A stretch of DNA of 64,000 bases from Halobacteriales archaeon QS_1_68_17 (GTDB lineage: Archaea > Halobacteriota > Halobacteria > Halobacteriales > Haloarculaceae), in NCBI GenBank assembly GCA_003021105.1, contig PXRG01000015.1, positions 62,001-126,000 on the forward strand, in the 5' to 3' direction. Position numbers and translations under genes: made by a program. The notes under the pieces are model-generated. The model worked only from the letters and a program-made list of their open reading frames with translations. It was not told where the DNA came from and did no database searches. Positions 5,712 to 23,801 of this stretch are shown in pieces (the stretch's first letter is position 1; each line of letters begins with the position of its first letter).

Positions 5712-6406
5712 AGTTCGACCTCGCCCGCCCGGACGTCCGAGGCGACGTGGACCAGTTCGTTCGTCAGCGCGGCGGCGAGGCCGCTCCCGCCCCGGCGGCC
5801 GACGGTCGTGATCGCGGGCACGCCGTGGTCGGCGGCGACCTCGCGGACCCGTTCGCGGCTCTCCTCGGCCTTGACGAACCCGACCGGCGTGGCGACCACG
5901 CAGGCCGGGCGGGTGCCGTCGTCGATGCAGTCCGACAGCGCCAGCGCCGCGGTCGGGGCGTTGCCCACGACCGCGATCGCGCCGTCGTAGACGCCCTGCC
6001 GGTCCAGTTCCAGCACCGAGGCGGCGGTGCGGGTCATCCCGGTCTCCGCGGCGAGTTCGGCCCCGTTGCCGATGGCCTTCTTCGTCTCGCAGTCGTGGCC
6101 GCGGCCGGTGATGCCCGCCTTGGCCATGGTGATGTCGGTGACGATGTCGGCCACGTCGAGCACCGCCCGTGCGCCCGCCGGCACGGGGTCGTTCGAAAAG
6201 CGGACCAGGTGCTGGAACTCGATGTCGCCCGTCGCGTGGACGGCCTTCTGTCTGATCCTGTCCTCGAGTGTCTCGTCGGGGACGAACTGCCGGACGATGT
6301 CCAGGCTCGTCTCCGCGATGTCCATCGCCGCCTCGGTCGTCGCGCCGAGGTCGGCGTACGCCTCGTCGATGTCGGAGTCGGATTCGGTGTCGTCTGCTGT
6401 CGCCAT
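5708..6406 (-). CDS. cbiC: Cobalt-precorrin-8 methylmutase CbiC/CobH
   Basis: Moves the C11 methyl group to C12 to give (hydrogeno)cobyrinic acid. The 232-aa protein shows the family blocks RIRQKAVHATGDIEF, the active-site region DITMAKAGITGR, then VVGNAPTAALAL and ATPVGFVKAEESRE. The ATG at 6406 lies 11 nt after the cobN stop; the stop overlaps the GTG of cbiE. The N-terminal ~25 residues are Asp/Ser-rich. A long frame on the same strand crosses this gene and much of cobN but is only a shadow frame. Confidence 0.95.
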   Translation of the reverse strand: MATADDTESDSDIDEAYADLGATTEAAMDIAETSLDIVRQFVPDETLEDRIRQKAVHATGDIEFQHLVRFSNDPVPAGARAVLDVADIVTDITMAKAGITGRGHDCETKKAIGNGAELAAETGMTRTAASVLELDRQGVYDGAIAVVGNAPTAALALSDCIDDGTRPACVVATPVGFVKAEESRERVREVAADHGVPAITTVGRRGGSGLAAALTNELVHVASDVRAGEVEL

Positions 6407-6417
6407 AGTTGTGGTGT

Positions 6418-9400
6418 TCAGTCGTCGTCGCTCGCGGCCGCCGGGCGGTCGGTCTGTCTGGCCTCGATGTCGCCGTCGACCCGGAGGTTCGCGTCCCGGA
6501 GGCGGCGTTCGGTCTCCGCGTCGGCGTCCCAGAGGTCCCGTTCGATGGCCTCCAGGAGCGTGTCGGTGATCGATTCGAGCGCCCAGGGGTTGACGTCGCG
6601 CATCCAGTCGGCCAGTTCCTCGTCGAGTGCGAACTTCTCCGCCGTCTCCTCCCAGAGCGCGTCCGAGACGACGCCGGTCGTGGCGTCCCAGCCCAGCACG
6701 ACGTCGACCGTCGTCGAGAGGTCGCCCGCGCCCTTGTAGTCGTGGTCCCGCATGCTCTCGATCCAGTCGGGGTTGAGCACGCGGGCGCGCATCGCCTTCC
6801 GGACCTTCTCCTCGTTGGTGTAGACGTCGACGTTGTCGGGGTCGCTGGAGTCGCCGACGTACGACGCGGGTTCCGCGCCCGCGATCCCGGTGACCGCGGA
6901 GATAAAGCCGCCGTGGAAGGCGTACCAGTCCGAGGAGTCGAACTCGTCCTGTTCGGCCGTGTCCTCGATCTTGACGGTCGCCTCGACACTCCCGAGGCGG
7001 CGCTCGAAGGCCTCGCGGGCCTCGGAGACCCGCCCGCGCGACCCGAGCGCGTAGCCGCCCCACTGGACGTACACCTCGGCGAGGTCGCCGCGGTCCTCCC
7101 AGTTGCCCTCGTCGACGGCCTTGTTCGTGCCCGCGCCGTAGCCGCCCGGCCGGGTCGTGAACACGCGGTGTGTGGCCGCGGCGCGCGCGTCGGATTCGTC
7201 CATGCCGTCGGCGGCCAGGTCCGCGGCCTCTTCCTCGACGTGCTTTTTCACGTAGTTCGTGTCGTGCGGTTCGTCGAGGTCGACAACGGCGTCGACGGCG
7301 TCGTGGATCACGCCGGCGGCCTGCGGGAAGGCGTCGCGGAACAGCCCGGAGACGCGGGTAGTCACGTCGATCCGCGGGCGGCCGAGTTCCTCCAGGGTAA
7401 TCGGGTGAACGTCGTCGATCCGGCCGGCGTCGGTCCACTCCGGTTCGACGCCCATCAGCGCGAGCACCTGCGCGACGGTCTCGCCGCGCGTCCGGACCGT
7501 CGGGGTACCCCACGCGACGACGCCGATCTCCTCGGGGTACTCGCCTTCCTCGCTTTCGTGTCGCGCGGCCACGCCCTCTGCGACCTCGCGGCCGACCTCC
7601 CAGGCGGCCTTCGCGGGCACCTTGCGGGGATCGAGCGTGTAGAAGTTCCGCCCCGTCGGCAGCAGGTCGACCCCGCCGCGGGTGGGTGCGCCCGACCCGC
7701 CGGGTTCGACGTACTCGCCGTTCAGCGCGTCGGCCGTCTGCGGGATCTCCGCCTCGGCACCCCGTACGCGCGGGGCGGCCTCCTCGCAGATGAAAGCGAG
7801 CGCCTCCCGCAGGTCGTCGTGTGCGCCGCCCCGCACCCGGGCGTCGCCCAGCGGCTCGATGTCCACGACGAGGAGGTTCATGTTCAGTTCGTCGTCCGGC
7901 CCGGCCTCGACTTCCGAGGCCGGCAGGTCGAAGTCGTGTGCGGCCAGCGTCTCCACGAGGTCGACGCTCGTCTCGTAGACCTCGTCGGCGGCCTCGGCGT
8001 AGGTCATGCCCAGTCGCTCGTCGTACGCGCCGGGGTCGTCGAGCATCCGCCGGTAATCGACGCCGAGCACGCCCGCGACTGACTCCCGGAGGCTCGGCGC
8101 ACCGGGGTTCTCCAGGCGCGTCAGCGCGACGAGATACTCCACGAGGCGGTCGCCAGCGGGCGGTTCGCTCATCGTGTGCAGCCCCATCCGGATCTGGGTG
8201 GTCTTGATGTCTGTCAGGTACTCGTGGACCCGCTCGACGAGTTCGTCGATCCCCACCTCGTCGCCGGCCACCTCGCCGTCCGCGAGCGACGACCCGGCCT
8301 CGTCGGGGCCGCGCACGTCGGCTTTCTCGTCGATCTCGCCGGCGATCCCGAGTTCCACCGCGAGGTCGAGGTCGTCGACTTTCTCGCGGAGCAGGGCCTC
8401 GAGGTGGTCGCCACTGTCGGTCCGGGCGTCCTCCATCCCGGCCTCGCGGTACTGGTCGGCCAGGTCCTCTAGCTCGGCGAGTTCGTCGTACGTGCCGGCG
8501 TTGCGCATCACCGGCGTGAGGTAGTCGACGATCGCCGCGTACGACCGGCGTTTCGCCTGCGTCCCCTCGCCGGGGTTGTTGACGATGTAGGGGTAGACGT
8601 TCGGCAGGTCGTCGATCAGCTGGTCGGGCGCGCTCGCGCCGTCCAGGCCGACGGTCTTGCCGGGCAACCACTCGAGGCTGCCGTGGGTGCCGAGGTGGAC
8701 GACCGCGTCGGCCGCGAAGCTGTTCCGGAGCCAGCCGTAGAAGGCCACGTAGTCGTGGGGCGGCTGGAGGTCCGAGTCGTGGTAGACCTTCGATGGGTCC
8801 ATCCCGAACCCGCGGGGGGGCTGGACCGTGACGAGGACGTTCCCGAACTCCACGCCGGGGATGGCGAACGGCCGGTCGGGCGGGTCGCCCCACTCCTCGA
8901 CGACGGCCTCCCGGAACCGCTCGTCGGTCGCCTCGAACCACTCGCGGTACGTGTCCGTCGACACCACGTCGACCGACTGCTCCCGGACGTCCTCGGGGGC
9001 GACCCACCTGTCGTCGAGCGTGAGCTGGGCGGTGAGCCGCTCGACCAGCGACTGGCCGCTCTCGGGACGCTCGCCGCCGAGGTCGTATCCCCGCGCGCCC
9101 AGTTCGTCCAGCAGATTGACCGTGCTCTCCGGGCTGTCGAGCCCGAAGGCGGTCCCGATGCCGTCGTCGCTCGGCGGGTAGTTGTGGAGGACGACCGCCA
9201 CGCGCTTGTCCTCGTTGTCGAGGTAGCGCAGGCGCGCCCAGTTGACCGCGAGGCGCGCGGCGTGGTCCACGCGGTCCTCGATGGGGAAGTGTTGCTTCGG
9301 GGCGCTCCCGATGCCGGCGGCGTCGTCCATCCGCTCCTTGCCGCTTATCGGGTGGGTGATGACGTTGCCGTCGAACTCCGGCAGCGCGACCGACAGCGCG

Positions 9401-10299
9401 AGTTCGAACCCCATCACGCCCGTGTCGCTCGACGCGTACCGCGACCGCGACCGCATCGTCGTGACCGTCTGGAGGACGGGCACGCCCAGGCGGTCCAGGA
9501 ACACGTCCTCGGCCGACTCGCCCTCGTCGCTGGCGCTCCGGCCCCGCTCGTCCATCGACAGCGAGAACATGAACGACGACAGCACGGCGTCGACGACCGG
9601 TTCGCCGTCCTCGACGAGCCAGGTGTCTGTCACCCACTCCGCGTCCTGCTGTTCGTCGGTGTCGGTCGCCGGGTTGCAGAAGATCGGTAGCGCGTCCGCA
9701 CCCCGCGATTCGACGGCCCGCACCTGCGCGTCCACGTAGCGGGTGTTCTCGTGGGTCCAGTGGGACTCGTAGAACCACACCGCGACGGTCGGCGTCTCCG
9801 GGTCGAAGGTGGCCACGAGGTCCTCGTACTCCGCCCCCGGGTGGTCGGGGTGGTAGACCCCCTCGGTCGGCAACGCCACCGGATCGTCGTAGGCGACCGA
9901 CGCCCCGCCGTACTCGTCGGCCAGGAACCTGACGAGGTTGGCGACGTTCGCGCTGCCGCCGTACTCCAGGTATTCGTAGGCGCGCTCGCGGTCGGCGTCC
10001 GGGACGGACGTGTCCTCGAACGCGTAGGCGTCGCCGGTCGATTTGACAACCAGCGGGACGCCCGCCTCGCGCAGGCGCTCGACCGCCCGGTCGTAGCCGG
10101 GCATGCTGTCCTCCCCGCCGTGGAGCCAGAAGACCGCCGCCGTCGCGTCGACGAGTTCGTCCACGAACGCCTCGACGTCCGTCTCGTCGTCGAAGTCGCT
10201 CTCGGAGCGCACCACCAGGTCGGCGTCGACCTCCCCGGCGGCCCGCTGGACGGCCCCTAGCTCGTTCTCCGTCGCGGTGTACAGGCCGATAGTAGGCAT
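6418..10299 (-). CDS. cobN: Cobaltochelatase large subunit CobN
   Basis: Large subunit of the ATP-dependent, late-insertion cobaltochelatase (CobN with AAA+ partners), homologous to ChlH/BchH. The 1,293-aa product has the family length. Recognisable stretches include FWLHGGEDSMPGYDRA near the N-terminus, GVEFGNVLVTVQPPRG, HLGTHGSLEWLPGK in the central domain and AGTNKAVDEGNWEDR towards the C-terminus. Start ATG 10299 is preceded 21-27 nt upstream by CTAATAC inside the shared 34-bp divergent promoter with chlID, consistent with leaderless transcription. The AAA+ partner is the divergent gene at 10334. Confidence 0.95.
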   Translation of the reverse strand: MPTIGLYTATENELGAVQRAAGEVDADLVVRSESDFDDETDVEAFVDELVDATAAVFWLHGGEDSMPGYDRAVERLREAGVPLVVKSTGDAYAFEDTSVPDADRERAYEYLEYGGSANVANLVRFLADEYGGASVAYDDPVALPTEGVYHPDHPGAEYEDLVATFDPETPTVAVWFYESHWTHENTRYVDAQVRAVESRGADALPIFCNPATDTDEQQDAEWVTDTWLVEDGEPVVDAVLSSFMFSLSMDERGRSASDEGESAEDVFLDRLGVPVLQTVTTMRSRSRYASSDTGVMGFELALSVALPEFDGNVITHPISGKERMDDAAGIGSAPKQHFPIEDRVDHAARLAVNWARLRYLDNEDKRVAVVLHNYPPSDDGIGTAFGLDSPESTVNLLDELGARGYDLGGERPESGQSLVERLTAQLTLDDRWVAPEDVREQSVDVVSTDTYREWFEATDERFREAVVEEWGDPPDRPFAIPGVEFGNVLVTVQPPRGFGMDPSKVYHDSDLQPPHDYVAFYGWLRNSFAADAVVHLGTHGSLEWLPGKTVGLDGASAPDQLIDDLPNVYPYIVNNPGEGTQAKRRSYAAIVDYLTPVMRNAGTYDELAELEDLADQYREAGMEDARTDSGDHLEALLREKVDDLDLAVELGIAGEIDEKADVRGPDEAGSSLADGEVAGDEVGIDELVERVHEYLTDIKTTQIRMGLHTMSEPPAGDRLVEYLVALTRLENPGAPSLRESVAGVLGVDYRRMLDDPGAYDERLGMTYAEAADEVYETSVDLVETLAAHDFDLPASEVEAGPDDELNMNLLVVDIEPLGDARVRGGAHDDLREALAFICEEAAPRVRGAEAEIPQTADALNGEYVEPGGSGAPTRGGVDLLPTGRNFYTLDPRKVPAKAAWEVGREVAEGVAARHESEEGEYPEEIGVVAWGTPTVRTRGETVAQVLALMGVEPEWTDAGRIDDVHPITLEELGRPRIDVTTRVSGLFRDAFPQAAGVIHDAVDAVVDLDEPHDTNYVKKHVEEEAADLAADGMDESDARAAATHRVFTTRPGGYGAGTNKAVDEGNWEDRGDLAEVYVQWGGYALGSRGRVSEAREAFERRLGSVEATVKIEDTAEQDEFDSSDWYAFHGGFISAVTGIAGAEPASYVGDSSDPDNVDVYTNEEKVRKAMRARVLNPDWIESMRDHDYKGAGDLSTTVDVVLGWDATTGVVSDALWEETAEKFALDEELADWMRDVNPWALESITDTLLEAIERDLWDADAETERRLRDANLRVDGDIEARQTDRPAAASDDD

Positions 10300-10333
10300 A
10301 ACGTTGTTAAACCCGGATTGTATTAGTCCAAGT
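10300..10333. promoter_or_regulatory. Divergent cobN/chlID promoter with 14-bp imperfect palindrome
   Basis: Only 34 bp separate the two ATGs. TTGTATTAGTCCAA (10318-10331) is an imperfect palindrome of form TTG-N8-CAA. For chlID it lies between a TATA-like GTTAAA (10306-10311) and the ATG; for cobN the same bases overlap the TATA position (CTAATAC, 21-27 nt before ATG). One protein bound there could control both chelatase genes at once. It matches the copy at 23841-23854 at 13 of 14 positions. Confidence 0.65.
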
Positions 10334-12670
10334 ATGGTTGATTTGGGCAGGGACAAAAAGGCTTCGCCGGCCCGGGCGGACGTGCCGTTCCCGGCGGTGG
10401 TCGGCCAGTCGGAGTTGAAGGAGGCGTTGCTGGCGGTCGCCGCCAACGACGCGCTCGACGGCCTGTTGATCCGCGGCGAGAAGGGGACGGCGAAGTCGAC
10501 GGCGGTCCGGGCGCTGGCGGACCTGTTGCCCGCGCAGGCGGCCGTGGCGGACTGTCCCTACGGCTGTCCGCCGGCGGACCCGGACTCGCAATGTGCGTCC
10601 TGTCGCGGGCGCGACGATCCGTCGGTCGAGCGCCGGCCGGTACCGCTGGTGACCCTGCCGCTCGGGGCTACCCGCGAGCGCGTCGTCGGGACGCTCTCGG
10701 TCGAGAAGGCCCTGGACGGCGACCCGGAGTTCGAGCCGGGTCTCCTGGCGCGGGCCAACCGCGGCATCCTCTACGTCGACGAGGTGAACCTGCTGGACGA
10801 CCACCTCGTGGACGTGTTGCTGGACGCCGCGGCCAGCGGCGTCAACCGCGTCGAACGGGACGGCGTCAGCGTCACTCACCCCGCGGAGTTCACGCTGATC
10901 GGGACCATGAACCCCGAGGAGGGCGACCTCCGGCCGCAGTTGCGCGACCGGTTCGCCCTCCAGGCGACGGTGGCCGGCTGCCGCGACGTCGACGACCGCG
11001 TGGCGATCATCGACCGGGCACTCGACCGCGATGCGGCGGCCCGAAGCGGCGGGGACGGCGCTGGAAACGCGCACAGTCGGACCGGAGCGAGCGCGGCCGA
11101 TCCGGTCGCGGACGCGGCCACTGGCGACGCGTCGATCCGGGCCAGCGGGGATTGCGCCGCCGATCCCTCGCTCCCGGGAGACGAGTGGCGGGCCGGGTTC
11201 GCGGCGGCGACGGCCGAGCGCCGCGACCAGCTCCGCGAGGCGCGCGAACGCGTCGGGGAAGTGACCCTGCCCGACGAGTTCGCCGCGGAGATCGCCGAAC
11301 TCTGCCGTGACGCCGGCGTCGACGGCCACCGCGGCGACATCGCCACCGCCCGGACCGCGCTGGCGCTGGCCGCCCTCGACGGCCGCCCGAAGGTCCTCGA
11401 ATCGGACGTCCGCCGCGCCGCCGAACTGGCCCTCCCCCACCGCCTCCAGTCGACGCCCTTCGAGGACGCCCCGGACCCCGAAGACGTGATCGACGACCAC
11501 TTCGAGGACGCGGATGCCGACGGCGAGGACGGCGAAGGGAGCGGAGACCGCGGTGACGCCAGCGACGGGGAGAACTCCGGTGACGGGACCGACGCCGAGA
11601 CCGGGGACGACGAGGACGACGCAGGCCCGGAGCAGGTCGACGACGGCGACGACGACCCGGAGCAGTCCGGGGACGACGGCTCGCGGGAGGAATCTGGCCG
11701 CCCGGACGACGCGGCCGACGGCGAGTCTCCCGGCGGGCGGTCCCCCTCGCGGCCGGACGCGGCCGGCGGCGACGGCGGCGACGGCGGGACGGAGGGCGAA
11801 CGGACGGGCGAGGACGCCGACGCGCCCGGCGAGAGCGACGAAAAGCGGGATGGCACGCCGCTCGTGCCCGGCCAGGCCCGGACCGGCGTGGGTCGGGCGC
11901 GCGCGCCGGACATCGAGGGACCGGACGCGCCGGACGAGGCCGGACCGGGTGGCGGGTCGCGGTCGGGCGCGTGCCCGAGCGCCGACAACAGGGGTGCCCG
12001 GGTCCGGACCGAGCGGACCGACTCCGGCGGGTCGGTCGACGCAGCGGCGTCCGTCCGCGTGGCGGCAACGCGCGGGTCGACGGCGGTCGAGTCGCGGGAC
12101 CTCCGCCGGTCGGTCCGGGCCGGCGACGCCGCGGCGCTGGTCGTGTTCGCGGTCGACGCCAGCGCCTCGATGCGCGGCCCGATGCGGACCGCGAAGGGCG
12201 TCGCCATCGAACTCCTGCGGGACGCCTACGAGCAACGCGACGAGGTGGCGCTCGTGGCCTTCGCCGGCGACGACGCCGACGTGCTCTTGCCCCCGACCGA
12301 CAGCGTCGCGCTGGCGGCCCGCCACCTCAAGGACCTCCCGACCGGCGACCGGACGCCGCTGCCGGCGGGGATACGGACCGCGGGCGAGGTGATAGAGCGA
12401 GCCGACCCCGACGTGGGCATCGTGGTGCTGGTCACCGACGGCCGCGCGAACGCCGCCGACGGGAGCCCCACGGCCGAGACCCACGCGGCCGCACAGCGCC
12501 TCGCCGACCGGGGGACCCACGTCGTCGTGGTCGACGCCGGCCGCCAGGACGACCGCGGCCTGGCGACCGAGGTGGCCGCCCTGACGACCGGCGAACACGT
12601 CCCGCTCTCGGCGCTCTCGCCCGAGCGCGTCGAGACGGCCGTGGCCCGCGCCCGGTCCGAACAGCGGTAG
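10334..12670 (+). CDS. chlID: ChlI/ChlD-type AAA+ ATPase-VWA fusion, presumed CobN partner
   Basis: Motor and linker subunits of a metal chelatase fused in one 778-aa chain. The N-terminal AAA+ domain has Walker A GEKGTAKST (residues 48-56), Walker B ILYVDEVN (145-152) and a four-cysteine insert (Cys74, 78, 87, 90; C-x3-C-x8-C-x2-C) that looks metal-binding. A ~190-residue Asp/Glu/Gly-rich linker follows. The C-terminal VWA domain has a MIDAS motif DASAS. Divergent from cobN with a shared promoter, so cobalt insertion is the likely role; in this lineage no chlorophyll is made. ATG 10334 is chosen because the TATA-like GTTAAA fits a leaderless start. Confidence 0.92.
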   Translation: MVDLGRDKKASPARADVPFPAVVGQSELKEALLAVAANDALDGLLIRGEKGTAKSTAVRALADLLPAQAAVADCPYGCPPADPDSQCASCRGRDDPSVERRPVPLVTLPLGATRERVVGTLSVEKALDGDPEFEPGLLARANRGILYVDEVNLLDDHLVDVLLDAAASGVNRVERDGVSVTHPAEFTLIGTMNPEEGDLRPQLRDRFALQATVAGCRDVDDRVAIIDRALDRDAAARSGGDGAGNAHSRTGASAADPVADAATGDASIRASGDCAADPSLPGDEWRAGFAAATAERRDQLREARERVGEVTLPDEFAAEIAELCRDAGVDGHRGDIATARTALALAALDGRPKVLESDVRRAAELALPHRLQSTPFEDAPDPEDVIDDHFEDADADGEDGEGSGDRGDASDGENSGDGTDAETGDDEDDAGPEQVDDGDDDPEQSGDDGSREESGRPDDAADGESPGGRSPSRPDAAGGDGGDGGTEGERTGEDADAPGESDEKRDGTPLVPGQARTGVGRARAPDIEGPDAPDEAGPGGGSRSGACPSADNRGARVRTERTDSGGSVDAAASVRVAATRGSTAVESRDLRRSVRAGDAAALVVFAVDASASMRGPMRTAKGVAIELLRDAYEQRDEVALVAFAGDDADVLLPPTDSVALAARHLKDLPTGDRTPLPAGIRTAGEVIERADPDVGIVVLVTDGRANAADGSPTAETHAAAQRLADRGTHVVVVDAGRQDDRGLATEVAALTTGEHVPLSALSPERVETAVARARSEQR

Positions 12671-13902: not shown

Positions 13903-13924
13903 GAGCGCCGGACGGCGGACGCGA

Positions 13925-14033: not shown

Positions 14034-14117
14034 GCTCCCCGCGGTGTGGATTTTCGGTTCGATAGCCAACGCTCGCCGCATCGCAACGCCTTTTCTTCCG
14101 TCCCGCGTCGTGGCGGT

Positions 14118-15049: not shown

Positions 15050-16306
15050 TCAGCGGAGGTGGAGCCGGTACGCGCCGCGGCGCTCGCCCTCGTCGTGGTA
15101 GACGACCGGTTCCTCGACGACCGCGAGGGTCCCGCCGGCCAGTGCGGCCGCCGTGGCGACGCCCGCGGTCCCGAAACCGGACTGTTCCCCCTCGCGGACG
15201 TCGACGGTCCGGCAGCCGTGGACGGCGGCGTCGCGTTCCCGGAAGTTCTGGGCGACGGGAACCGCGACCCGGTCGCCGTCGGTCCCGATCCCGCTGGCGA
15301 AGCCGCTGACCGGCGCGGTCCAGCGGCGCTTTCCGTCCGGCGCGTAGCCGAACGCGGTGTGCTCGTCGGGGTGGCGCGACTCGGTCTCGCGGCCCTCCTC
15401 GGGGTAGGTGTTTCCCGTGACGAAACAGACGCCCGCGTCGGTCGCGTGGACGTGGTTCGGGTAGGCGTACAGCGTCTCCTCCCCCACGCGCGTCTCGGTC
15501 GCCAGGTCGGCCGCCCAGGCCGGCTCGCAGTCCGCGTCGAGTCGGTAGCCCCGATAGTCGCCGTGGCTCGTGACCGCGAGGCCATCGTCCAACAGGGAGA
15601 CGTCGCCGACCCGGCGCTGGCCGTCGTTCCCCGGGTCCCACGAGCCGCGTTCCTCGCCGGTGCCGGCGTCGAGGACGACGAGTCCGCGCTGGTGGTCGCC
15701 GGGACACCGGTTGTACCCGACCGCGACCCGGCCGTCGCTGACGTCCAGGCTGATCGGCGAGGCGTCGGTCCGGTAGCGCCAGCGGACGCCGCCGCCGGCC
15801 TCGAAGGCGTAGACGACGCTCTCGAAGGTCCGGCTCCCGTCTCTGCCGCGTTCGTACCGGCGGGCGGCCGCGTAGACGGCCTCCCCGTCGGCCGCGAGGT
15901 CGGCGACGAACGGCAGGAAAAAGCGGGTGTCCTTCGTCGCCTCGCCGACGTCGTCGGCAGTCCGGTAGCGCCAGCGGACGTGTCCGTCCGACCCGTGGAG
16001 GCGGACCTCGCCGGCGGGGCCGCGCTCGCCGACGGCGACGCCACCGCCGAGTGGCACGGCCGAAACCAGTGCGGCGTCGCCCGCGCCGGCGGTCCATTGC
16101 TGTTCGCCCGACGTCGCGTCGACCGCACGGACGGTTCCGCTGGATGTTCCCACGAAGGCAATACTTTCGGCGACGGCGACCGCCGACTGCCGGCCGGCGT
16201 GGCGCGACCCCCGCGGGTCTACCTCGCCCAGGTCGACGGTGGCGCGGTCGGCCGGCTCTCCGGCCCCCGGGTCGGCCGCGGAGTCCTGCGGCAGGTCGCT
16301 ATTCAT
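15050..16306 (-). CDS. PQQ-like beta-propeller repeat protein of the B12 operon
   Basis: A 418-aa protein built of about seven WD/PQQ-like blades. Recurrent elements such as GTSSGTVRAVDATSGEQQW, GSDGHVRWRYRT, EAGGGVRWRYRT and VVLDAGTGEERGSW each pair an aromatic strand end with a Gly/Asp turn. No signal peptide, so cytoplasmic. It is the last gene of the eleven-gene cbiT operon and its ATG (16306) lies within the last codons of the DUF3209 gene. Its biochemical role in cobalamin synthesis is unknown; a scaffold or a corrinoid/metal carrier would fit but is guesswork. Confidence 0.85.
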   Translation of the reverse strand: MNSDLPQDSAADPGAGEPADRATVDLGEVDPRGSRHAGRQSAVAVAESIAFVGTSSGTVRAVDATSGEQQWTAGAGDAALVSAVPLGGGVAVGERGPAGEVRLHGSDGHVRWRYRTADDVGEATKDTRFFLPFVADLAADGEAVYAAARRYERGRDGSRTFESVVYAFEAGGGVRWRYRTDASPISLDVSDGRVAVGYNRCPGDHQRGLVVLDAGTGEERGSWDPGNDGQRRVGDVSLLDDGLAVTSHGDYRGYRLDADCEPAWAADLATETRVGEETLYAYPNHVHATDAGVCFVTGNTYPEEGRETESRHPDEHTAFGYAPDGKRRWTAPVSGFASGIGTDGDRVAVPVAQNFRERDAAVHGCRTVDVREGEQSGFGTAGVATAAALAGGTLAVVEEPVVYHDEGERRGAYRLHLR

Positions 16307-16670
16307 CGGCCGGGAACGCCTCGTGGAGCACGTCGTGGGACGCGGCGAGTCCATCGAAGACGCTCTCGCCCTGCCGGGTGAGCCGCCGGACCGCCCGCTC
16401 GGCGTCCCGGACGGCCACGAGGCGGCCCCGGAGGTAGTCGTATGCCGGGTCGTCCTCGTCGGTGGCCGCGATCTCTTCTTCGAGGTCTACCAGCGCCGCG
16501 TCGAGGTGGCGCTCTACCTCCGAGAGCGTCTCCGCGTCGGCGAGCGCACCGATCGGCCCGTCGAGGTGTCCTTCGAGTTCCTGTTCTGCGTGTTCGCGCG
16601 CGGCCGGGTCCTCCGTCCCGAGGACGTTCAGCAGTCCGAGCCGCAGTGCTTCGAGTTCGTGGCAGGTCAT
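16299..16670 (-). CDS. DUF3209 family protein
   Basis: A 123-aa, acidic, all-helical protein starting MTCHELEALRLGLLNVLG, the signature of the haloarchaeal DUF3209 family, which occurs in B12 gene clusters. No catalytic motif is evident; the CHE near the start could bind metal. It overlaps cbiX by 4 nt (ATGA) and the propeller gene by 8 nt, so it is translated as part of the same operon. Function unknown. Confidence 0.85.
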   Translation of the reverse strand: MTCHELEALRLGLLNVLGTEDPAAREHAEQELEGHLDGPIGALADAETLSEVERHLDAALVDLEEEIAATDEDDPAYDYLRGRLVAVRDAERAVRRLTRQGESVFDGLAASHDVLHEAFPADE

Positions 16671-17911
16671 AGTGTCTGATCGACGATGTCGGAGACGATG
16701 CGGTCCCTGTCGAGGTGGGACGAGACGATGCGTTCGGCGTCCTCGTCGGCGACGCCGCCGTACCAGACGCCGTCGGGGTAGACGGCGACGATCGGCCCTT
16801 CGCCACAGCGCCCGAGACACGACGAGCGGGTGATCCGGGCGTCGCAGGCCTCGGAATCCCGGGCTTCCTGGCGGAGGCGTTCGAGCACGGCCGGCGCGCC
16901 GTCGGCCGCGCAGGTCTGGTTCGTGCAGACGGCGACGTGCTTCTCGGGGGCATCGTGGACGTGCGGGTCGTCGTCGACATCCTCGCGGTCCTCGTGGGCC
17001 TCCTGGTGGGTCAGCGCCCGGAGCATGGCGCGCGCGCCGCCGACGTCCTCCTCGTAGCCGTCGAGTTCCACCTTGTACTTGCAGGTGTCACAGGACATCT
17101 CGACGCTGCCGGTCCGGGCTTCCTGCCAGCGGTCGGCCAGCACGTCCAGAAGCCGGGAGTCGGTCCCCAGCGGGTCGCCCGCCGCGGCCGCGACGTAGGG
17201 GTACTCCGCGTCGAACTCGGCCGCGCCGTCGCGGATGCGCCCGGTGAGCACGCCGTCCCCGAGCATGTACGGGACGACGACGACGGCGTCGGGGCGGGTC
17301 TTGGCGACGTCGTGGAGCGCCCCGTCGAGCAGCGGTTCCGTCACGCCGACGAACGCCGCCTCGACGCGGGCGAACTCGCGTCCCTCGTAGAGGAGCCGCG
17401 CGAGCTTGTGGATGTCGGCGTTGGCGTCCGGGTCGCTCGATCCCCGGGCACAGAGGACGACCGCCACCTCGTCGTCGGCGCGGTCGACGCCCATCTCGGC
17501 CTCGACGGCGGCGGCGCGGTCGTCCAGCAGGTCGACGATGGCCGGGTGGATGCCCAGATGCGAGCCGTTGTTCAGCGCCAGCCCCTCGTGGGTCGCCCGC
17601 GCCCGCTGGACCGCCAGCGGGACGTCGGTTTTGACGTGGCTGGCGGCGAACAGCGACAGCTGGACGACCGTCAGCTCCGAGACGGTCCCTGCCAGCCCGG
17701 CGATGGCGTCGGGGATCGACGGCTCCGCGAGTTCGAGGAAGCCGGCGTCGACGGGGATACCGAGCCGCGACTCCAGGGCGGCCGCCAGCTCCCGGACCTG
17801 GTCGTTGGACTTCTCCCTGCGGGAGCCGTGCCCGACGAGCACCACGGCCTCGTCGTCGAGCCCCGCGGTCGGGGTGCCGGCCGCCTCGTCGCCGTCGGTG
17901 CTCTGGCTCAC
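16667..17911 (-). CDS. cbiX: Sirohydrochlorin cobaltochelatase CbiX with C-terminal 2Fe-2S ferredoxin domain
   Basis: Inserts Co2+ into sirohydrochlorin at the start of the early-insertion (anaerobic) route. The 414-aa chain has two CbiX halves: residues ~20-145 with VLVGHGSRREK (His28) and AASHVKTD (His92), and ~148-265 with LCARGSSDPDAN. An extra CDTC (274-277) follows. Residues ~325-410 form a thioredoxin-like 2Fe-2S domain with Cys329, Cys334, Cys365 and Cys369. Bacterial CbiX lacks this whole last domain. GTG start at 17911 overlaps the stop of the preceding gene. Confidence 0.93.
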   Translation of the reverse strand: MSQSTDGDEAAGTPTAGLDDEAVVLVGHGSRREKSNDQVRELAAALESRLGIPVDAGFLELAEPSIPDAIAGLAGTVSELTVVQLSLFAASHVKTDVPLAVQRARATHEGLALNNGSHLGIHPAIVDLLDDRAAAVEAEMGVDRADDEVAVVLCARGSSDPDANADIHKLARLLYEGREFARVEAAFVGVTEPLLDGALHDVAKTRPDAVVVVPYMLGDGVLTGRIRDGAAEFDAEYPYVAAAAGDPLGTDSRLLDVLADRWQEARTGSVEMSCDTCKYKVELDGYEEDVGGARAMLRALTHQEAHEDREDVDDDPHVHDAPEKHVAVCTNQTCAADGAPAVLERLRQEARDSEACDARITRSSCLGRCGEGPIVAVYPDGVWYGGVADEDAERIVSSHLDRDRIVSDIVDQTL

Positions 17912-18573
17912 GTGTCTGCCCTGTCGAGACTCTTCTCTAGTTTGCGTTTCCGCGCGGGGGCGAACAGGCCGGTCGACTCGCACCCCTCGTAGAGCCACGG
18001 CCCCACGTCGGGGACGGCGTCGTCGGCGATCCCGAACCAGTAGCCGCCCGAGGAGGTCTCGGCCACCTCGCCGGTCGGGGTCTCGACCGGGAGGTCGCCG
18101 AGCAGTCCCTCGATTGCCTCCAGCACCGCACGGTCGTCGTGGACGAACGAGATGCCGACGGTCCCCGAGGAACTCTTGAAACAGACCGTGCCACAGCCCT
18201 CCAGCAGGCCCCGCAGCAACTGCCGGTCGTGGTCCGCGAGGGCGTCCAGCCGGTACCCGCCAGCCTGCCCGTCGATGGGGAGGCCGAGCGCCGCGGCCGC
18301 CCGGTCGGCCAGGCCGCCGAACACCTGGACGGTGTACTCGTCTTCCGTCCGGGTGATCGACGTGTCGTGAGCGTAGTCGCGCTCGATGATCCGGTGGTCG
18401 ACCTGTTCGGCCCCGGCGATGGCCGCCAGCCGCCGGGCCGCCGTCTCGTCGGCCGCCCGGACGGTCACACACTCCGCCGAGAGGTCGCCGTCGCCGACGA
18501 CCCGGCCCCAGAAGTATGCCGTCTCGGGGTGGCTCGCCAGCATGTCGCCGGGAGTGCCGATCTCGATGCTCAT
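17908..18573 (-). CDS. Uncharacterised protein of the haloarchaeal B12 operon
   Basis: A 221-aa protein I cannot assign with certainty. It has two similar halves: residues ~20-100 (FWGRVVGDGDLS ... DEYTVQVFGGL) and ~115-210 (LLRGLLEGCGTVCFK ... GISFVHDDRAVLEA), each with the alternating pattern of LAGLIDADG-like/WhiA-type domains, but no nuclease Asp pair is obvious. It lies between the 3-Cys ferredoxin and CbiX in the cbiT operon, overlapping both by 4 nt. Since no CbiJ (precorrin-6A reductase) or CbiD is visible in the cluster, it is a candidate for a missing step; this is inference from position only. Confidence 0.7.
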   Translation of the reverse strand: MSIEIGTPGDMLASHPETAYFWGRVVGDGDLSAECVTVRAADETAARRLAAIAGAEQVDHRIIERDYAHDTSITRTEDEYTVQVFGGLADRAAAALGLPIDGQAGGYRLDALADHDRQLLRGLLEGCGTVCFKSSSGTVGISFVHDDRAVLEAIEGLLGDLPVETPTGEVAETSSGGYWFGIADDAVPDVGPWLYEGCESTGLFAPARKRKLEKSLDRADT

Positions 18574-18806
18574 AGTTCCTCCACGCTGATCGCGCCCGGC
18601 GGGCAGGCCGCGGCGGCCTGGCGGGCCCGGTCGATCCGGGCGTCGTCGAACTCCGCGACGACGCGTCCGTCCTCCCGCCGGACCGATCCCTCGTCGGCGT
18701 CGACCGTCGCCAGGCCGTCCCCGTCCTCGACGAACCGCGGGTCCCGGGTCAGGCAGGCGAAGATCCCCTCGCAGGCGTCCGTATCCACGGTGACTCTGTA
18801 GGCCAT
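18570..18806 (-). CDS. Small [3Fe-4S]-type ferredoxin
   Basis: A 78-aa ferredoxin with Cys12-x5-Cys18 (ACEGIFAC) and a distal Cys68-Pro (AACPPGAISVEEL). The second Cys of a 4Fe-4S motif is absent, leaving three ligands as in 3Fe-4S ferredoxins. Strands VTVDTDA and GAISVEE frame the cluster as in the family. It is embedded in the cbiT operon directly after cbiH2 and may deliver electrons to a ring-reduction step or to the 2Fe-2S domain of CbiX. Confidence 0.88.
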   Translation of the reverse strand: MAYRVTVDTDACEGIFACLTRDPRFVEDGDGLATVDADEGSVRREDGRVVAEFDDARIDRARQAAAACPPGAISVEEL

Positions 18807-18807
18807 G

Positions 18808-19800
18808 TCAGTAGTCGTACTTGCTCTCGTACCCGCGCGGGGTGACCATCCGGTCGTCCCACACGTAGGTGTCCTCGTTGCCCACGAGGAGCGTGGTCGT
18901 CATGTCCACGAGGTCGGTCTCGCCCAGTTCCTCCAGGTTCTGGAGTTCGACGATCTCGACTGTTTCGTCGTCGCGGCCGGCCCCGTGGACGATTCCGACC
19001 GGCGTCTCGGGGTCACGGTGCTCCATGAGGATCTCGCAGGCCTTCTCGTAGTTGTCGCGGCGCTTCCGGCTCCAGGGGTTGTAGATGGCGATCGTGAACC
19101 CCTCCTTGGCGGCGGCGTGGAGCCGCGACTCGATGGTCGGCATGTCCGTCAGGTGGTCCGACAGCGAGATCGAGACCGTGTCGTTGACCAGCGGCGCGCC
19201 GACCCGCGCGGCACACGACTGGGCCGCCGGCACGCCGGGGACGACCTCGAAGTCGACCATCGAGGCCGTCGCGTCCTTCGATTCGAGGATCTCCAGCGCG
19301 AGGCCGGCCAGCGCGTAGACGTTCGGATCGCCCGAGCCGATGATCGCCACGTCGTTGCCCGCCAGCGCGCGGTCGACCGACTCCTCGGTCCGCGAGACCT
19401 CGCCGCACATCGGCGTGTCGTAGATGTCCTCGGCCGCCCCGGTGACCTCGTCGGGCAGCAACTCCACGTAGGTCGTGTAGCCGACGATGTGGTCGGCCTC
19501 CAGGAGTGCTGACCGCGCCCGCGCGGTCATGCCCTCCGGCTGGCCCGGCCCCAGGCCGACCGCGATCAACTGGCCCGGGTCGGCGTCGAAGTCCTCGACC
19601 GTCGCGCCGACATTCTCGTCGTCGCCGCTCGCGCCACACGAGGAGCTCGACTCCGAACTCGTCGCGCCGCCGCGCGAGGAACTCGATTCCGTCGTCGCGC
19701 CGCCGCACTTCGAGGCCGCGTCGGCGTCGGTGCTCGCGTCCGCTTTTGATTCGGTCGTCGATGCGCCGCAGTTCGATGTCGTGGTGTCGTCCGTGCTCAT
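18808..19800 (-). CDS. cbiH2: Cobalt-precorrin-3 C17-methyltransferase CbiH, second copy, with Cys/Ser-rich N-terminal repeats
   Basis: SAM-dependent C17 methylation and ring contraction. The catalytic domain begins at ~residue 78 (LIAVGLGPGQPEGMTARA), with IIGSGDPNVYALAG, VVPGVPAAQSCAARVGAP, IAIYNPWSRKR and the C-terminal VTPRGYESKYDY. The preceding ~65 residues are unusual: short repeats of CGASTTES, CGGATTES, RGGATSSES and CGASG type, with Cys11, Cys32 and Cys55. The gene's ATG overlaps the cbiH1 stop (TGATG). The two adjacent CbiH paralogues are normal for haloarchaea; how they divide the work is not known from sequence. Confidence 0.92.
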   Translation of the reverse strand: MSTDDTTTSNCGASTTESKADASTDADAASKCGGATTESSSSRGGATSSESSSSCGASGDDENVGATVEDFDADPGQLIAVGLGPGQPEGMTARARSALLEADHIVGYTTYVELLPDEVTGAAEDIYDTPMCGEVSRTEESVDRALAGNDVAIIGSGDPNVYALAGLALEILESKDATASMVDFEVVPGVPAAQSCAARVGAPLVNDTVSISLSDHLTDMPTIESRLHAAAKEGFTIAIYNPWSRKRRDNYEKACEILMEHRDPETPVGIVHGAGRDDETVEIVELQNLEELGETDLVDMTTTLLVGNEDTYVWDDRMVTPRGYESKYDY

Positions 19801-20705
19801 CAGAAATCCTCCACGTCACGCCCGCCGCGCGGGGTGACGAGAAACTCGCGGTAGTCGTTCGCCCAGATCTCGGTCTCGTGGTTGCCCACGATGATCGAGG
19901 TGCCCATGCCGCCGACTTCCTCGTCGTGGTCGGTCGCCTCGTCCAGCCGGCAGATGGTGTGCGTCTCGTCCTCCAGGTTCCGGCCGGCCTCGCCGCGGCC
20001 GGCGTCGTTGAAGATGGCGACGGGCACGTCGTCGGCCCGCTCCTCGCGGATCACCTCGATGGCCCGCTCGTAGTCCCGCCAGCAGTTGTACAGGACGATC
20101 ACGAACCCGGAGATAGCGGCCGCCCGTAGCTTCTCGGCGATCTCGTCCCAGCCGCGCCACTTGTCCGACAGCGACACGGTACAGAAGTCGTTCGACAGCG
20201 GCGCGCCGACGTTGGCCGCCCCGCCCAGCGCCGCCGTGACGCCGGGGACGATCTCGATCGGCACGTCCGTCGCCGTCTCCTCTTTCGCCATCACGAACAG
20301 CAGGTCGGACTTCCCGTAGACGTTCGGGTCGCCCCCGGAGACGTGGGCGACGTCCTCGCCGTCCCGGACCCGCTCGAAGGCCTCGCGGGCCAGTTCGACC
20401 TGCCGGCCCATCGACGACCGGACGATCTCCTGGCGGGTGCCGTCCGGCCGGGCCGCGACACCGCCGTCGGTCACCGCCTCCTCGGGCGGGAGCGTGCCGT
20501 CCCGCCGGAGGAACTCCTGGTAGAGGTTCGAGGCGATCACGCAGTCGGCGGTCCGGATTACGTCTTTCGCCCGCTGGGTCATCCCGCCCGGCAGGCCCGG
20601 TCCGATCCCGACGACGTACAGCGTCCCCAGGTCGTCCCCGTGAGCGTCGCCGGCTACCGCGGTCTCGGACCCGCCGGCGTCGGCCCCGGTCGATCCGTCG
20701 CTCAT
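19800..20705 (-). CDS. cbiH1: Cobalt-precorrin-3 C17-methyltransferase CbiH, first copy
   Basis: A 301-aa tetrapyrrole methylase of the CbiH/CobJ branch: LYVVGIGPGLPGGMTQRA at ~residue 29, HVSGGDPNVYGKSDL, IVPGVTAALGGAANVGAP and FVIVLYNCWRDYE, ending REFLVTPRGGRD. The SAM-binding glycine loops are intact. A ~26-residue Gly/Asp/Ser N-terminal tail precedes the domain. ATG at 20705 overlaps the cbiG stop by 4 nt and its own stop shares a base with the cbiH2 ATG. It likely arose with cbiH2 by duplication, but the two are now clearly diverged. Confidence 0.92.
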   Translation of the reverse strand: MSDGSTGADAGGSETAVAGDAHGDDLGTLYVVGIGPGLPGGMTQRAKDVIRTADCVIASNLYQEFLRRDGTLPPEEAVTDGGVAARPDGTRQEIVRSSMGRQVELAREAFERVRDGEDVAHVSGGDPNVYGKSDLLFVMAKEETATDVPIEIVPGVTAALGGAANVGAPLSNDFCTVSLSDKWRGWDEIAEKLRAAAISGFVIVLYNCWRDYERAIEVIREERADDVPVAIFNDAGRGEAGRNLEDETHTICRLDEATDHDEEVGGMGTSIIVGNHETEIWANDYREFLVTPRGGRDVEDF

Positions 20706-21676
20706 CGGCCGACCGCCACCGTCACCGCGTCGTCGTGGCTCGTCTTCTCGACTATCAGTTCGTTCTCGCGGCCGCCCGCGATGGCCGACGCCTCGGAGAT
20801 GCCGGGCCAGCCGATCAGTTCCTTCGACCGCGAGGGGGTCGGCCCCTCGTGGGCCTCGAGGGTCTCCTTCTCGAAGGCCACGACGCCCAGGCCGAGCTCC
20901 TCGGCGGCCGCCAGCAGTCCCGCCTCGTCCTCCTTGCGGGTGCCGGTGGCGACGAACTCCACGTCCTCGATTCCGTAGTCGGTCCGGTCCAGGGCCGCCC
21001 GCCAGGCCGCCAGGAACTGCTCCTCTTTCGCGCCGGCGACGCTGCCGGTCCCGAGGACGACGCCGTCGTCTTTGTTCCGCTTGAGGACGGTCACGTCGTC
21101 GCCGACGAGGACCGCCCGCGGGCCGTCCAGGCGGGCGATGGGCCCGAGTTCGTCGTCCAGCACCGCGAGGTTGGTCGCCACCGTCGAGTCGCCGTTGACG
21201 ACGTGTGCGTCCAGTGCCTTCGCCTGCTTCTCGACGCCCTGCTTGTCCGCCGCCTCGGAGGCCGTCGTCATCGCCGGGACCGCGCCCATCGTCGCCAGGT
21301 CCTCCGCGACCTGGTTCGCGCCGTGGTGGCCGCCCGTGATCGGGATCGCCCACGTCAGTTCCTCGTCGACGACGCAGATCGCGGGGTCGTCCCACTTGTC
21401 GTCTAACAGGCCCGCGGTCTTCCGCATCGCGATGCCCGAGGCCATCAGCCCGACGAAACAGTCGTACTCGCCCCAGTGGTCCGCGAAGACCTCGCCGTAG
21501 TACTCGATCAGGTCGATCCGGTCGTAGCGGTCGCCCAGTTCCGCGGCGATTTCCTCCGCTGTGTCCCACTTTCGCTCGAAGGAAACAATTGCGATCTCCT
21601 CCGCGACCTCGCCGTCGCTGTCGGGTGCTTTGCAACTGCCGCTCTCGCCGTCCGCGTCGTTCGTGTCTGTGCTCAT
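20702..21676 (-). CDS. cbiG: Cobalt-precorrin-5A hydrolase CbiG
   Basis: Opens the delta-lactone of cobalt-precorrin-5A with release of acetaldehyde. The 324-aa product shows the family core: YDCFVGLMASGIAMRKTAG (~residue 70-88), AICVVDEELTWAIPITGGHHGAN, and a C-terminal domain with GTGSVAGAKEEQFL and FVATGTRKEDEAGL. A short N-terminal tail has SCKAPDSDGE. Located between cbiF and cbiH1 with a 4-nt overlap to cbiH1 and one base between its ATG and the cbiF stop, so it is translated with its neighbours. Confidence 0.94.
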   Translation of the reverse strand: MSTDTNDADGESGSCKAPDSDGEVAEEIAIVSFERKWDTAEEIAAELGDRYDRIDLIEYYGEVFADHWGEYDCFVGLMASGIAMRKTAGLLDDKWDDPAICVVDEELTWAIPITGGHHGANQVAEDLATMGAVPAMTTASEAADKQGVEKQAKALDAHVVNGDSTVATNLAVLDDELGPIARLDGPRAVLVGDDVTVLKRNKDDGVVLGTGSVAGAKEEQFLAAWRAALDRTDYGIEDVEFVATGTRKEDEAGLLAAAEELGLGVVAFEKETLEAHEGPTPSRSKELIGWPGISEASAIAGGRENELIVEKTSHDDAVTVAVGR

Positions 21677-21677
21677 G

Positions 21678-22538
21678 TCAGTCGTCGGCCTCCGATTGGC
21701 CGCGGTTGGCCCAGTCGCCGTAGAGGTAGGACCGCTCGTAACCCGACCCGGTCGCGGCCTCGCCGATGATCACCATCGCGGAGGCGCGGTAGCCGGCCTC
21801 CTCGACCTGGTCGGCGATGGTCCCGATGGTCCCCTCGATGACGTCCTCGTCGGGCCAGGATGCGTGGTAGACGACCGCGACCGGCGTCTCCGGGTCGTGG
21901 CCGTCCGCCAGCAGCCGGTCCATCGTGTCCCGGACCGCGTGTGTCCCCAGGTAGATGCAGGTCGTCACGTCGCCCATCCCGACGAACTCGCCGATGTGGT
22001 CTTCCTCCGCCGTCAGTGTCTTCCCCTGCGGTCGGGTGAACGCGACGTGGTTGGCGACCTCGTTGAGCGTCAGTTGCGTCCTGAGGGTGGCGCTCGCGGC
22101 GAACGCCGAGGTGACGCCGGGCACGAAGTAGGTCGGCACGCCCTCGTGTTCGAGGGCGTCCATCTGCTCGAGCGCGGCCCCGTAGATGGCCGGGTCGCCG
22201 CTGTGGAGCCGCACGACCGTGTCGCCGGCCTCGTAGGCGTCCCGCATCAGCGGGACGAGTTCCTCTAAGTCCTTCCCGATCGAGTTGACCTGTTCGGCGT
22301 GGCTACAGAACTCGTCGAGTAGTTCGCTGTTGACCAGCGACCCCGCGTGGACCACCAGGTCGGCCGCCTCGCAGAGTCGCTTCCCGGTCACCGTCAGCAG
22401 GCCGGGGTCGCCCGGGCCGGCACCGACGAAAGGGATGCCCTCCTGTTCGTCGCCGGCGGTGTGGTCGTAGACCCGCGGGTCGCGGTCGCGGGTCCGCCCG
22501 GCCTGCTCGTCGATGGCGTCCTGTGGGTCCTCAGTCAT
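21678..22538 (-). CDS. cbiF: Cobalt-precorrin-4 (C11)-methyltransferase CbiF
   Basis: SAM-dependent methylation at C11. The 286-aa product contains PFVGAGPGDPGLLTVTGKRL at ~residue 35, VVRLHSGDPAIYGAALEQM, YFVPGVTSAFAASATL and the C-terminal GEAATGSGYERSYLYG. All are standard CbiF/CobM blocks, and the length is about 25 residues above the bacterial enzyme owing to an Asp/Arg-rich N-terminal tail. Its start overlaps the cbiL 3' end by 8 nt. Assignment is secure. Confidence 0.95.
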   Translation of the reverse strand: MTEDPQDAIDEQAGRTRDRDPRVYDHTAGDEQEGIPFVGAGPGDPGLLTVTGKRLCEAADLVVHAGSLVNSELLDEFCSHAEQVNSIGKDLEELVPLMRDAYEAGDTVVRLHSGDPAIYGAALEQMDALEHEGVPTYFVPGVTSAFAASATLRTQLTLNEVANHVAFTRPQGKTLTAEEDHIGEFVGMGDVTTCIYLGTHAVRDTMDRLLADGHDPETPVAVVYHASWPDEDVIEGTIGTIADQVEEAGYRASAMVIIGEAATGSGYERSYLYGDWANRGQSEADD

Positions 22539-23232
22539 CGGACGGCACCCCGTCGCCGTGTTCCGCGCCCCGATCCTTTTCGAGGCCGCGCTTCTCGGCG
22601 TACGCGAGCGTGTAGTAGTCCCGCTCGGCGACCTCGGTGGGGTCGTCCGTCACGAGCGTCTCGCCTTGCTCCATGTAGAGCCGCCGGCCGTAGGTCACGT
22701 CGTAGTCCGCCGCGACCAGTCCCTCGTGGGTCGCCGGCGCGTCGGTCACCTTGAACAGGATCATGCGGTCGGGACCCGTCGGGGACGCGCCGCCGGCGGC
22801 CTCGCGGAGCGCCAGGCCCGCGCCGGCGTCGACCTCGACGCCCAGCGCTGTCGTGAACGCGGTCACGGCGCTCACGCCCGGGACGATCTCGGTTTCCACG
22901 TCCGGGTGGAAGGTCTCCATCGTCCGCCGGAGGTGACCGAACGTCGAGTAGACGTTCGGGTCGCCCAGCGTCACGAAGGCGACCTCGCCCTCCCGGGCGC
23001 GCGGCGCGACCGCCGCGGCGGCCTCCTTCCAGGCCGACCGCAGTTTCTCCGGGTCGCGGGTCATCGGGAACGAGAGGTCGCCGATCCGGGACTCGGGGAC
23101 GTGTTCGGTCGCCACCGTCTTCGAGAGCCGCCCCGGCGAGTAGACCACGTCGGCCGACTCCAGGACCGCCTTCCCGCGGACGGTCACGAGGCCGGCGTCG
23201 CCGGGGCCGAGGCCCACGCCGTACAGCGTCAC
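22531..23232 (-). CDS. cbiL: Cobalt-factor II C20-methyltransferase CbiL
   Basis: Methylates C20 of cobalt-precorrin-2/factor II. The 233-aa product begins VTLYGVGLGPGDAGLVTVRG; later are FVTLGDPNVYSTFGHLRRTM, EIVPGVSAVTAFTTALG and ILFKVTDAPATHE, all characteristic of CbiL/CobI. The start is GTG (23232), which overlaps the cbiT stop by 4 nt; no in-frame ATG is closer to the domain edge. A long frame continues far upstream on this strand but enters the regulator gene in antisense and is not real. Confidence 0.93.
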   Translation of the reverse strand: MTLYGVGLGPGDAGLVTVRGKAVLESADVVYSPGRLSKTVATEHVPESRIGDLSFPMTRDPEKLRSAWKEAAAAVAPRAREGEVAFVTLGDPNVYSTFGHLRRTMETFHPDVETEIVPGVSAVTAFTTALGVEVDAGAGLALREAAGGASPTGPDRMILFKVTDAPATHEGLVAADYDVTYGRRLYMEQGETLVTDDPTEVAERDYYTLAYAEKRGLEKDRGAEHGDGVPSDD

Positions 23233-23801
23233 GGCCGGCCCCCGTCTGCCGCCGTCTCCGGCGCGCTCCCGACGAGCATGTACACCGGGTTGTCCGAGTC
23301 GAAACTCGTCGCCCCGGCGAGTTCGTAGCCGTGGCTCACCTGGAACTGGACGACGTCGTCTACCATCCCGCGTTCGCGGAACGCCGCCGCGGCCGCGCCG
23401 GCCACTTCGAGCCGCGAGACGTTCATCACCACGCGGTCGACGCCCGTCTCGCGGGCGTGGTCGAGGACGGCCTCGTAGTTGCGGCTCCCGCCCAGAAAGA
23501 GGGCGTCGGCGTCGTCGGGCAACCCATCGGGGGCCTCGGCCCGGCGGAGTTCGACGTCCGCGTCGATCCCGTCGTTCGCGTCGAGGTTCCGCCGCGTGGT
23601 TTCGAGCCTGTTCTCCTTGCGTTCGAGCGCAGTGACCCGCCCGGCCGCCCGGGCCGCCTCGACCGTGACGGCCCCGGTACAGGACCCGACCTCCGCGAAG
23701 TGGTCGGACGGCCCCAGGGCGAGTTTGCTCATCAGCACGGCCCGGACTTCCGCCTTCGTCGGGCCGGCCTTCGCGTCGTGCGGCAGCGCCACTCGCGTCA
23801 T
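23229..23801 (-). CDS. cbiT: Cobalt-precorrin-6B C15-methyltransferase (decarboxylating) CbiT
   Basis: Methylates C15 and decarboxylates the C12 acetate. A 190-aa class-I methyltransferase: GPTKAEVRAVLMSKL, then the SAM loop EVGSCTGAVTVEAAR (motif I), VTALERKENRLE (motif II) and ADALFLGGSRNYEAVL. Start ATG 23801 fits a leaderless mRNA, because TTTTATG (23825-23831, minus strand) is centred ~27 nt upstream. A longer frame from a TTG at 23834 would begin inside this TATA box and is not favoured. First gene of the eleven-gene unit E. Confidence 0.93.
   Translation of the reverse strand: MTRVALPHDAKAGPTKAEVRAVLMSKLALGPSDHFAEVGSCTGAVTVEAARAAGRVTALERKENRLETTRRNLDANDGIDADVELRRAEAPDGLPDDADALFLGGSRNYEAVLDHARETGVDRVVMNVSRLEVAGAAAAAFRERGMVDDVVQFQVSHGYELAGATSFDSDNPVYMLVGSAPETAADGGRP

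Follow-up and report, generated by a model that had tools for sequence, protein, structure and literature searches.

The cobalamin operon described here appears to represent a form of the cobalt-early route to B12 particular to haloarchaea, in which CbiD has been lost in the class and the methylation of cobalt-precorrin-5B at C1 has most likely passed to CbiH1, a divergent paralog of the C17-methyltransferase CbiH. In the same reading, a 221-aa protein, a 3-Cys ferredoxin, a DUF3209 protein, and a beta-propeller would not be missing ring-building enzymes, but rather the accessory set of the oxygen-respiring form of the operon, grouped around a CbiX cobaltochelatase with a 2Fe-2S domain. We estimate the probability of this overall explanation at roughly 55%.

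The window, a 64,000-nucleotide stretch from a haloarchaeal assembly with a completeness of 60.8%, has a G+C content of 69.7%. A minus-strand run extending from 23.8 kb to 15.05 kb has the order cbiT-cbiL-cbiF-cbiG-cbiH1-cbiH2-ferredoxin-221-aa-cbiX-DUF3209-propeller, with neighboring genes mostly abutting or overlapping by a few bases. The genes for CobN and ChlID, adjoined by those for CbtB and CbtA, are located at 6.4-12.7 kb, and the region at 1.6-6.4 kb encodes CbiC, a CbiE-like methylase, and ORFs of the CbiA and CobT types. The features are as follows:

23229..23801, minus strand: cbiT, cobalt-precorrin C15-methyltransferase (TIGR02469, 91.7 bits, above the cut-off)
22531..23232, minus strand: cbiL, cobalt-factor II C20-methyltransferase (NF004063, 436 bits)
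21678..22538, minus strand: cbiF, C11-methyltransferase (TIGR01465, 248 bits)
20702..21676, minus strand: cbiG, cobalt-precorrin-5A hydrolase (NF004465, 469 bits)
19800..20705, minus strand: cbiH1, divergent CbiH paralog, putative C1-methyltransferase in place of CbiD (TIGR01466, 176 bits, below the cut-off of 246; own clade; no SRKR loop; found in each of the 97 fully visible operons)
18808..19800, minus strand: cbiH2, canonical C17-methyltransferase/ring-contraction enzyme; acidic extension at the N terminus, rich in Ser and Cys (TIGR01466, 305 bits, above the cut-off; SRKR loop kept)
18570..18806, minus strand: 3-Cys ferredoxin, HVO_B0056 position (PF13459, Fer4_15, 60.9 bits; absent only from compact operons)
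17908..18573, minus strand: 221-aa protein with a predicted LAGLIDADG fold, nuclease acids not conserved, HVO_B0055 position (PF14528 in 12 of 28 relatives; model; Foldseek; residue conservation)
16667..17911, minus strand: cbiX, cobaltochelatase with an MSCDTC motif and a C-terminal 2Fe-2S thioredoxin-like domain (PF01903 twice; PF01257, 30.6 bits)
16299..16670, minus strand: DUF3209 helical protein, HVO_B0053 position, putative partner of the 2Fe-2S CbiX (PF11483, 176.7 bits; fold of TTHB059, PDB 2EHW; adjoins CbiX in Thermus)
15050..16306, minus strand: PQQ-type beta-propeller, HVO_B0052 position (PF13360)
10334..12670, plus strand: chlID, chelatase small subunits (PF01078, PF13519, and others)
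6418..10446, minus strand: cobN, large subunit of the late cobaltochelatase (PF02514, 1279 bits)
5708..6421, minus strand: cbiC, precorrin-8X methylmutase (PF02570, 172.8 bits)
4938..5765, minus strand: cbiE-like tetrapyrrole methylase, TP_methylase (PF00590, 84.6 bits)
2932-4050: CobT-type phosphoribosyltransferase
1637..2935, minus strand: CbiA/CobB-type amidating synthase, CbiA not told from CbiP (PF07685, GATase_3, 111 bits; PF01656)

Much of what an earlier note on this DNA had listed is borne out by this inventory: the genes of the early (CbiX) and late (CobN-ChlID) chelatases occur together in the window, as do CbiX, L, F, G, H1, H2, T, C, and the CbiE-like and CbiA-type ORFs, but the separate CbiP of that list does not, with only a single GATase_3/CbiA ORF found. 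The four unassigned genes of the operon, for the 221-aa protein, 3-Cys ferredoxin, DUF3209, and propeller, are likewise all present and have already been published. An ORF resembling nitronate monooxygenase (PF03060) occupies positions 13422-14963, between CbtA and the propeller, and a small Cys-containing ferredoxin-like ORF with a weak DUF1636 match (13549-13902), common to many operons, starts at the stop of CbtA. The N terminus of CbiH2 (19600-19800) is a Ser/Asp-rich stretch with several Cys residues in CGAS and CGGA repeats.

Section 3.3 of PMC8305020 (Pfeiffer & Dyall-Smith 2021) describes two consecutive pathway gaps in Haloferax volcanii, EC 2.1.1.195 and EC 1.3.1.106; HVO_B0052, B0053, B0055, and B0056 are proposed there as obvious candidates to fill them, and the late chelatase CobN-ChlID is discussed as puzzling. 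Halonotius likewise lacks CbiD and CbiJ (PMC6719526). The earlier note had also reported neither gene and had pointed to the rest of the genome as the place to look; profile searches of the host genome, 60.8% complete as assembled, found neither. Across the class, CbiD (PF01888) was detected in none of the 294 haloarchaeal genomes, including none of the 292 of good quality, with control genomes positive, and CbiJ (PF02571) in none of the 294 above the cut-off, a single weak match below it being found in one genome (G195, E=5e-4). The gap is real and class-wide, as previously in print. Divergence beyond the reach of Pfam profiles, or residence in unassembled sequence, could in principle hide both genes, and the incomplete host assembly and, for CbiJ, the match in G195 speak for this; against it stand the clean result in good-quality haloarchaea with positive controls and the detection of CbiD by the identical profile in 89 other Halobacteriota, such that this reading is largely refuted and we give it hardly any weight.

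The two gaps differ in their phyletic spread. CbiD was found in 89 of the 148 sampled Halobacteriota genomes, none of these 89 being one of the haloarchaea of that draw, whereas the CbiJ family of precorrin-6A reductases was found in none of the 148 (phylum sample G294-G415), including the 89 with CbiD. The CbiJ profile search was also negative in the Thermus, Sulfolobus, and Methanosarcina control genomes, all three of which encode CbiD. Thus, the loss of CbiD is class-specific, whereas the absence of the CbiJ family is phylum-wide, and the two gaps, formerly treated as one, represent two distinct problems. For CbiD, there is a concrete candidate, CbiH1.

CbiH1 and CbiH2, encoded by adjacent genes and 36% identical, occur together in every one of the 97 operons in full view, whereas the CbiD-bearing relatives examined have a single CbiH. 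In the maximum-likelihood tree, CbiH1 (92/94), CbiH2 (100/100), and the single CbiH (98/93) form separate clades, and CbiH1 was found only in CbiD-less haloarchaea. By score, CbiH2 is a regular member of TIGR01466, whereas CbiH1 falls well below the cut-off of that family and reaches merely 28.6 bits against TIGR02434 (CobF, precorrin-6A synthase), for which the cut-off is 195.8. An NPxSRKR-type loop, a feature defined in this analysis, is kept in CbiH2 and the single CbiH, with its S and R identical in every aligned sequence of the two groups, but is deleted in CbiH1, where all 15 sequences have gaps at the S and R positions. In RefSeq, CbiH1 is labeled merely as a SAM-dependent methyltransferase, and the earlier note had counted it as an ordinary pathway gene, overlooking the likeliest substitute for CbiD.

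The tetrapyrrole methylases already contain a C1-methylating member, CobF, and a CbiH duplicate shifted to C1 is therefore the simplest answer. Taken together, the distribution, phylogeny, and sequence of CbiH1 suggest that it is most likely the C1-methyltransferase acting on cobalt-precorrin-5B. An alternative is that CbiH1 and CbiH2 jointly form one hetero-oligomeric ring-contraction enzyme, with C1-methylation performed by a protein encoded outside the operon. The adjacency, sequence identity, and invariable pairing of the two genes are compatible with such an arrangement, as is the fact that CobJ/CbiH remains the closest family to CbiH1, but the CbiD-bearing relatives manage with one CbiH and CbiH1 is restricted to the CbiD-less class, which makes the hetero-oligomer unlikely. 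A few relatives outside the class (e.g., G346, locus L201) encode CbiG and a single CbiH with CbiD undetected, indicating that the loss of CbiD is not always coupled to CbiH1. CbiH-CbiC fusion proteins are encoded in other Halobacteriota (L185:5730-7190 and L201:5568-6923).

The 221-aa protein alone matched no Pfam family at E<=1 and no NCBIfam model; in particular, the CbiD (PF01888) and CbiJ/CobK (PF02571) profiles did not match it, and its predicted fold also differs from theirs. A link to LAGLIDADG emerged only through relatives rather than from the single sequence, with PF14528 (LAGLIDADG_3) matched by 12 of the 28 (best E 2.7e-5), and a profile search of PDB sequences returned nothing meaningful. 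The AlphaFold2 model obtained from a 62-sequence input (mean pLDDT 89.4, pTM 0.87) predicts a LAGLIDADG fold with confidence: in a Foldseek search of the PDB, every one of the 47 best matches was a LAGLIDADG protein, these being homing endonucleases, inteins, WhiA, and the bI3 maturase, with I-Tsp061I matched at an E value of 2.2e-7, and likeness to SAM-methyltransferases or NAD(P)H-reductases was absent among these best matches. The pseudo-twofold shape of the model is that of the monomeric LAGLIDADG fold and not a recognizable sequence duplication; the two similar halves of ~90 residues described in the earlier note did not reappear when they were compared (no blastp hit; hhalign E = 0.28).

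With the LAGLIDADG motif positions aligned within this analysis, the two catalytic-acid equivalents correspond to residue 127, which is Cys in 59 of the 62 sequences, and residue 28, which is Asp in just 39, whereas H69, R75, R108, R121, E125, C131, R208, and K211 are invariant. Thus, the fold and profile are those of LAGLIDADG homing endonucleases but the conserved catalytic acids at both motif ends are not found, and because these positions are not conserved, the protein is very probably not a nuclease. Signs of homing-endonuclease mobility, that is, an intron or intein location and a scattered distribution, are likewise lacking, the gene being free-standing in a conserved operon. Nor does the protein qualify as WhiA: the entire chain is taken up by the predicted LAGLIDADG fold, and no HTH profile was matched. 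We consider it a probable case of a domesticated LAGLIDADG-fold protein.

Domestication might have produced a transcription- or RNA-level regulator resembling the LAGLIDADG-derived WhiA, possibly one that reads redox state via the small Fe-S protein encoded alongside. WhiA (3hyi, 8dy9) is among the nearest folds, and the non-conservation of the nuclease acids and the conservation of the basic residues R121, R208, and K211 fit this possibility. However, 221 aa leave no space for a separate HTH domain, many of these operons have a separate divergent MarR-like regulator, and the 221-aa gene and the ferredoxin gene are apart in two genomes (G014 and G021), so that a regulatory role appears doubtful.

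The gene order of the Haloferax loci (L070-L080) equates the 221-aa protein with HVO_B0055, the ferredoxin with HVO_B0056, DUF3209 with HVO_B0053, and the propeller with HVO_B0052; for the function of HVO_B0055 and for the sibling locus tags, PMC8305020 is the sole mention found in the open literature. The 221-aa gene is present in 148 of the 153 haloarchaea with CbiG, and the 141 haloarchaea without CbiG yielded only two marginal matches. Chance co-occurrence with CbiG is rejected (Fisher p ~5e-75 over 294 genomes, which are related), and from this co-occurrence we conclude that the gene belongs to the pathway. Outside the haloarchaeal class, it was not found among 148 genomes of the phylum. 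In G014 (L048, L060), the operon is split between two genome places, with the ferredoxin accompanying cbiT-L-F-G and the 221-aa gene accompanying H1-H2-X; in G021 (L047, L059), a distant 221-aa homolog (34% identity) is encoded on a contig separate from the cobalamin operon. A Haloarcula rara plasmid (L120, L122) has the operon region in two copies.

Five genomes encode CbiG but not the 221-aa protein. Four of these (G271, G001, G007, and G130) have compact operons (L054/L069, L055, L056, and L058) with the order T-L-F-G-H1-H2-X, without the ferredoxin, 221-aa, DUF3209, and propeller genes, and no other inserted unassigned gene was found in the three compact operons with clearly callable ORFs. 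CbiD and CbiJ are absent from these genomes, as from all other haloarchaea, and therefore, the four accessory genes are not general gap fillers. This bears directly on the proposal of the earlier note that the 221-aa protein is a non-orthologous replacement of CbiD or CbiJ, which would require a LAGLIDADG fold to have acquired a corrinoid-modifying activity. The tight association with CbiG, the operonic position, the invariant H69, R75, E125, and C131, and the inclusion of HVO_B0055 among the candidates listed in PMC8305020 all accord with such a role, and the near-perfect pairing in aerobes would also be expected of a pathway enzyme whose place had been taken, in the compact lineages, by something unseen. 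Nevertheless, the compact operons and the fifth genome, G052, lack the 221-aa gene and CbiD/CbiJ alike, the absence of CbiJ extends to the remaining Halobacteriota, in which the 221-aa gene is not found either, and the closest folds belong to LAGLIDADG nucleases, a maturase, and WhiA. It is therefore very unlikely that the 221-aa protein fills either gap; for the one missing step, CbiH1 is the better candidate, and the phylum-wide CbiJ gap cannot generally be filled by any of the four accessory genes of the operon.

The distribution of the accessory genes also appears to follow that of the terminal oxidase. COX1 is missing in three of the four compact genomes, the one with COX1 being that of Halorhabdus amylolytica (G271). 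Only 4 of 206 haloarchaea lack COX1; the three among these that encode CbiG all lack the 221-aa gene, which is present in 108 of the 109 genomes with both COX1 and CbiG within the same set. G052 encodes COX1 and lacks, of the four accessory genes, the 221-aa gene alone. Because few lineages are involved, with about two independent oxidase-less ones, this pattern suggests but does not prove a link to oxygen.

The form of CbiX varies as well. In the usual operons, the C terminus of CbiX is a 2Fe-2S thioredoxin-like domain, whereas CbiX of the compact operons has a His-rich tail; in G052 (L057:11650-12650), a second, His-tailed CbiX occupies the exact slot of the 221-aa gene, next to the 2Fe-2S CbiX. 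The His-rich CbiX is found in all five operons without the 221-aa gene and in only one operon that has it, L104. This locus, from Haloarculaceae archaeon H-GB1-1, combines the 221-aa gene with a His-tailed CbiX and lacks DUF3209. Strict mutual exclusion of the 221-aa gene and the His-tailed CbiX is thereby ruled out, and their exclusion is only a strong tendency. DUF3209 tracks the 2Fe-2S CbiX, being missing in the compact operons and L104 and kept in G052; it is also missing in L141, a contig of just 6.3 kb. The protein scores above the cut-off of PF11483, is all-helical, and has the fold of TTHB059 (TM 0.83-0.85, 35-36% identity).

These associations suggest that the accessory genes form a module for cobalt insertion or redox upkeep around CbiX in respiring cells, within which the 221-aa protein would most likely act beside CbiX through binding of a partner, a metal, or nucleic acid. 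More tentatively, the pathway might have been rebuilt twice, with a CbiH duplicate becoming a C1-methyltransferase and a homing-endonuclease fold becoming a non-nuclease helper of CbiX that lets an oxygen-sensitive route run in respiring cells and is dispensable in oxidase-less lineages or where CbiX has a His-rich tail; we regard this broader scenario as possible rather than probable. For experiments, HVO_B0058, the CbiH1 of Haloferax volcanii, as a candidate methyltransferase accordingly takes priority over HVO_B0055 as an enzyme. The suggested role of the 221-aa protein, if true, would be an unusual instance of a vitamin pathway having domesticated a LAGLIDADG fold.

Among known systems, the closest is HVO_B0048-B0062 of Haloferax volcanii, which shares gene content and order, both gaps, and HVO_B0052, B0053, B0055, and B0056 with the operon studied here; the account of that region in the main text of PMC8305020 gives no fold for B0055, describes no compact operon, and assigns CbiH1 to no gap. 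The nearest family to CbiH1 is the CobJ/CbiH precorrin-3B C17-methyltransferases (TIGR01466), from which it differs by its score below the curated cut-off, separate clade, and deleted SRKR loop. The 221-aa protein resembles the LAGLIDADG homing endonucleases I-Tsp061I and I-DmoI and WhiA/DUF199 in its predicted fold and PF14528 match, but it lacks the conserved nuclease acids and the WhiA HTH, lies outside any intron or intein, and is fixed in a biosynthetic operon. Finally, the cobalamin operon of Thermus thermophilus pTT27 also encodes a CbiX whose C-terminal domain is Cys-rich and ferredoxin-like, with the DUF3209 gene next in line, and, as in the haloarchaeal operon, has no CbiJ annotated, but it includes CbiD, a single CbiH, and neither the ferredoxin nor the 221-aa gene.
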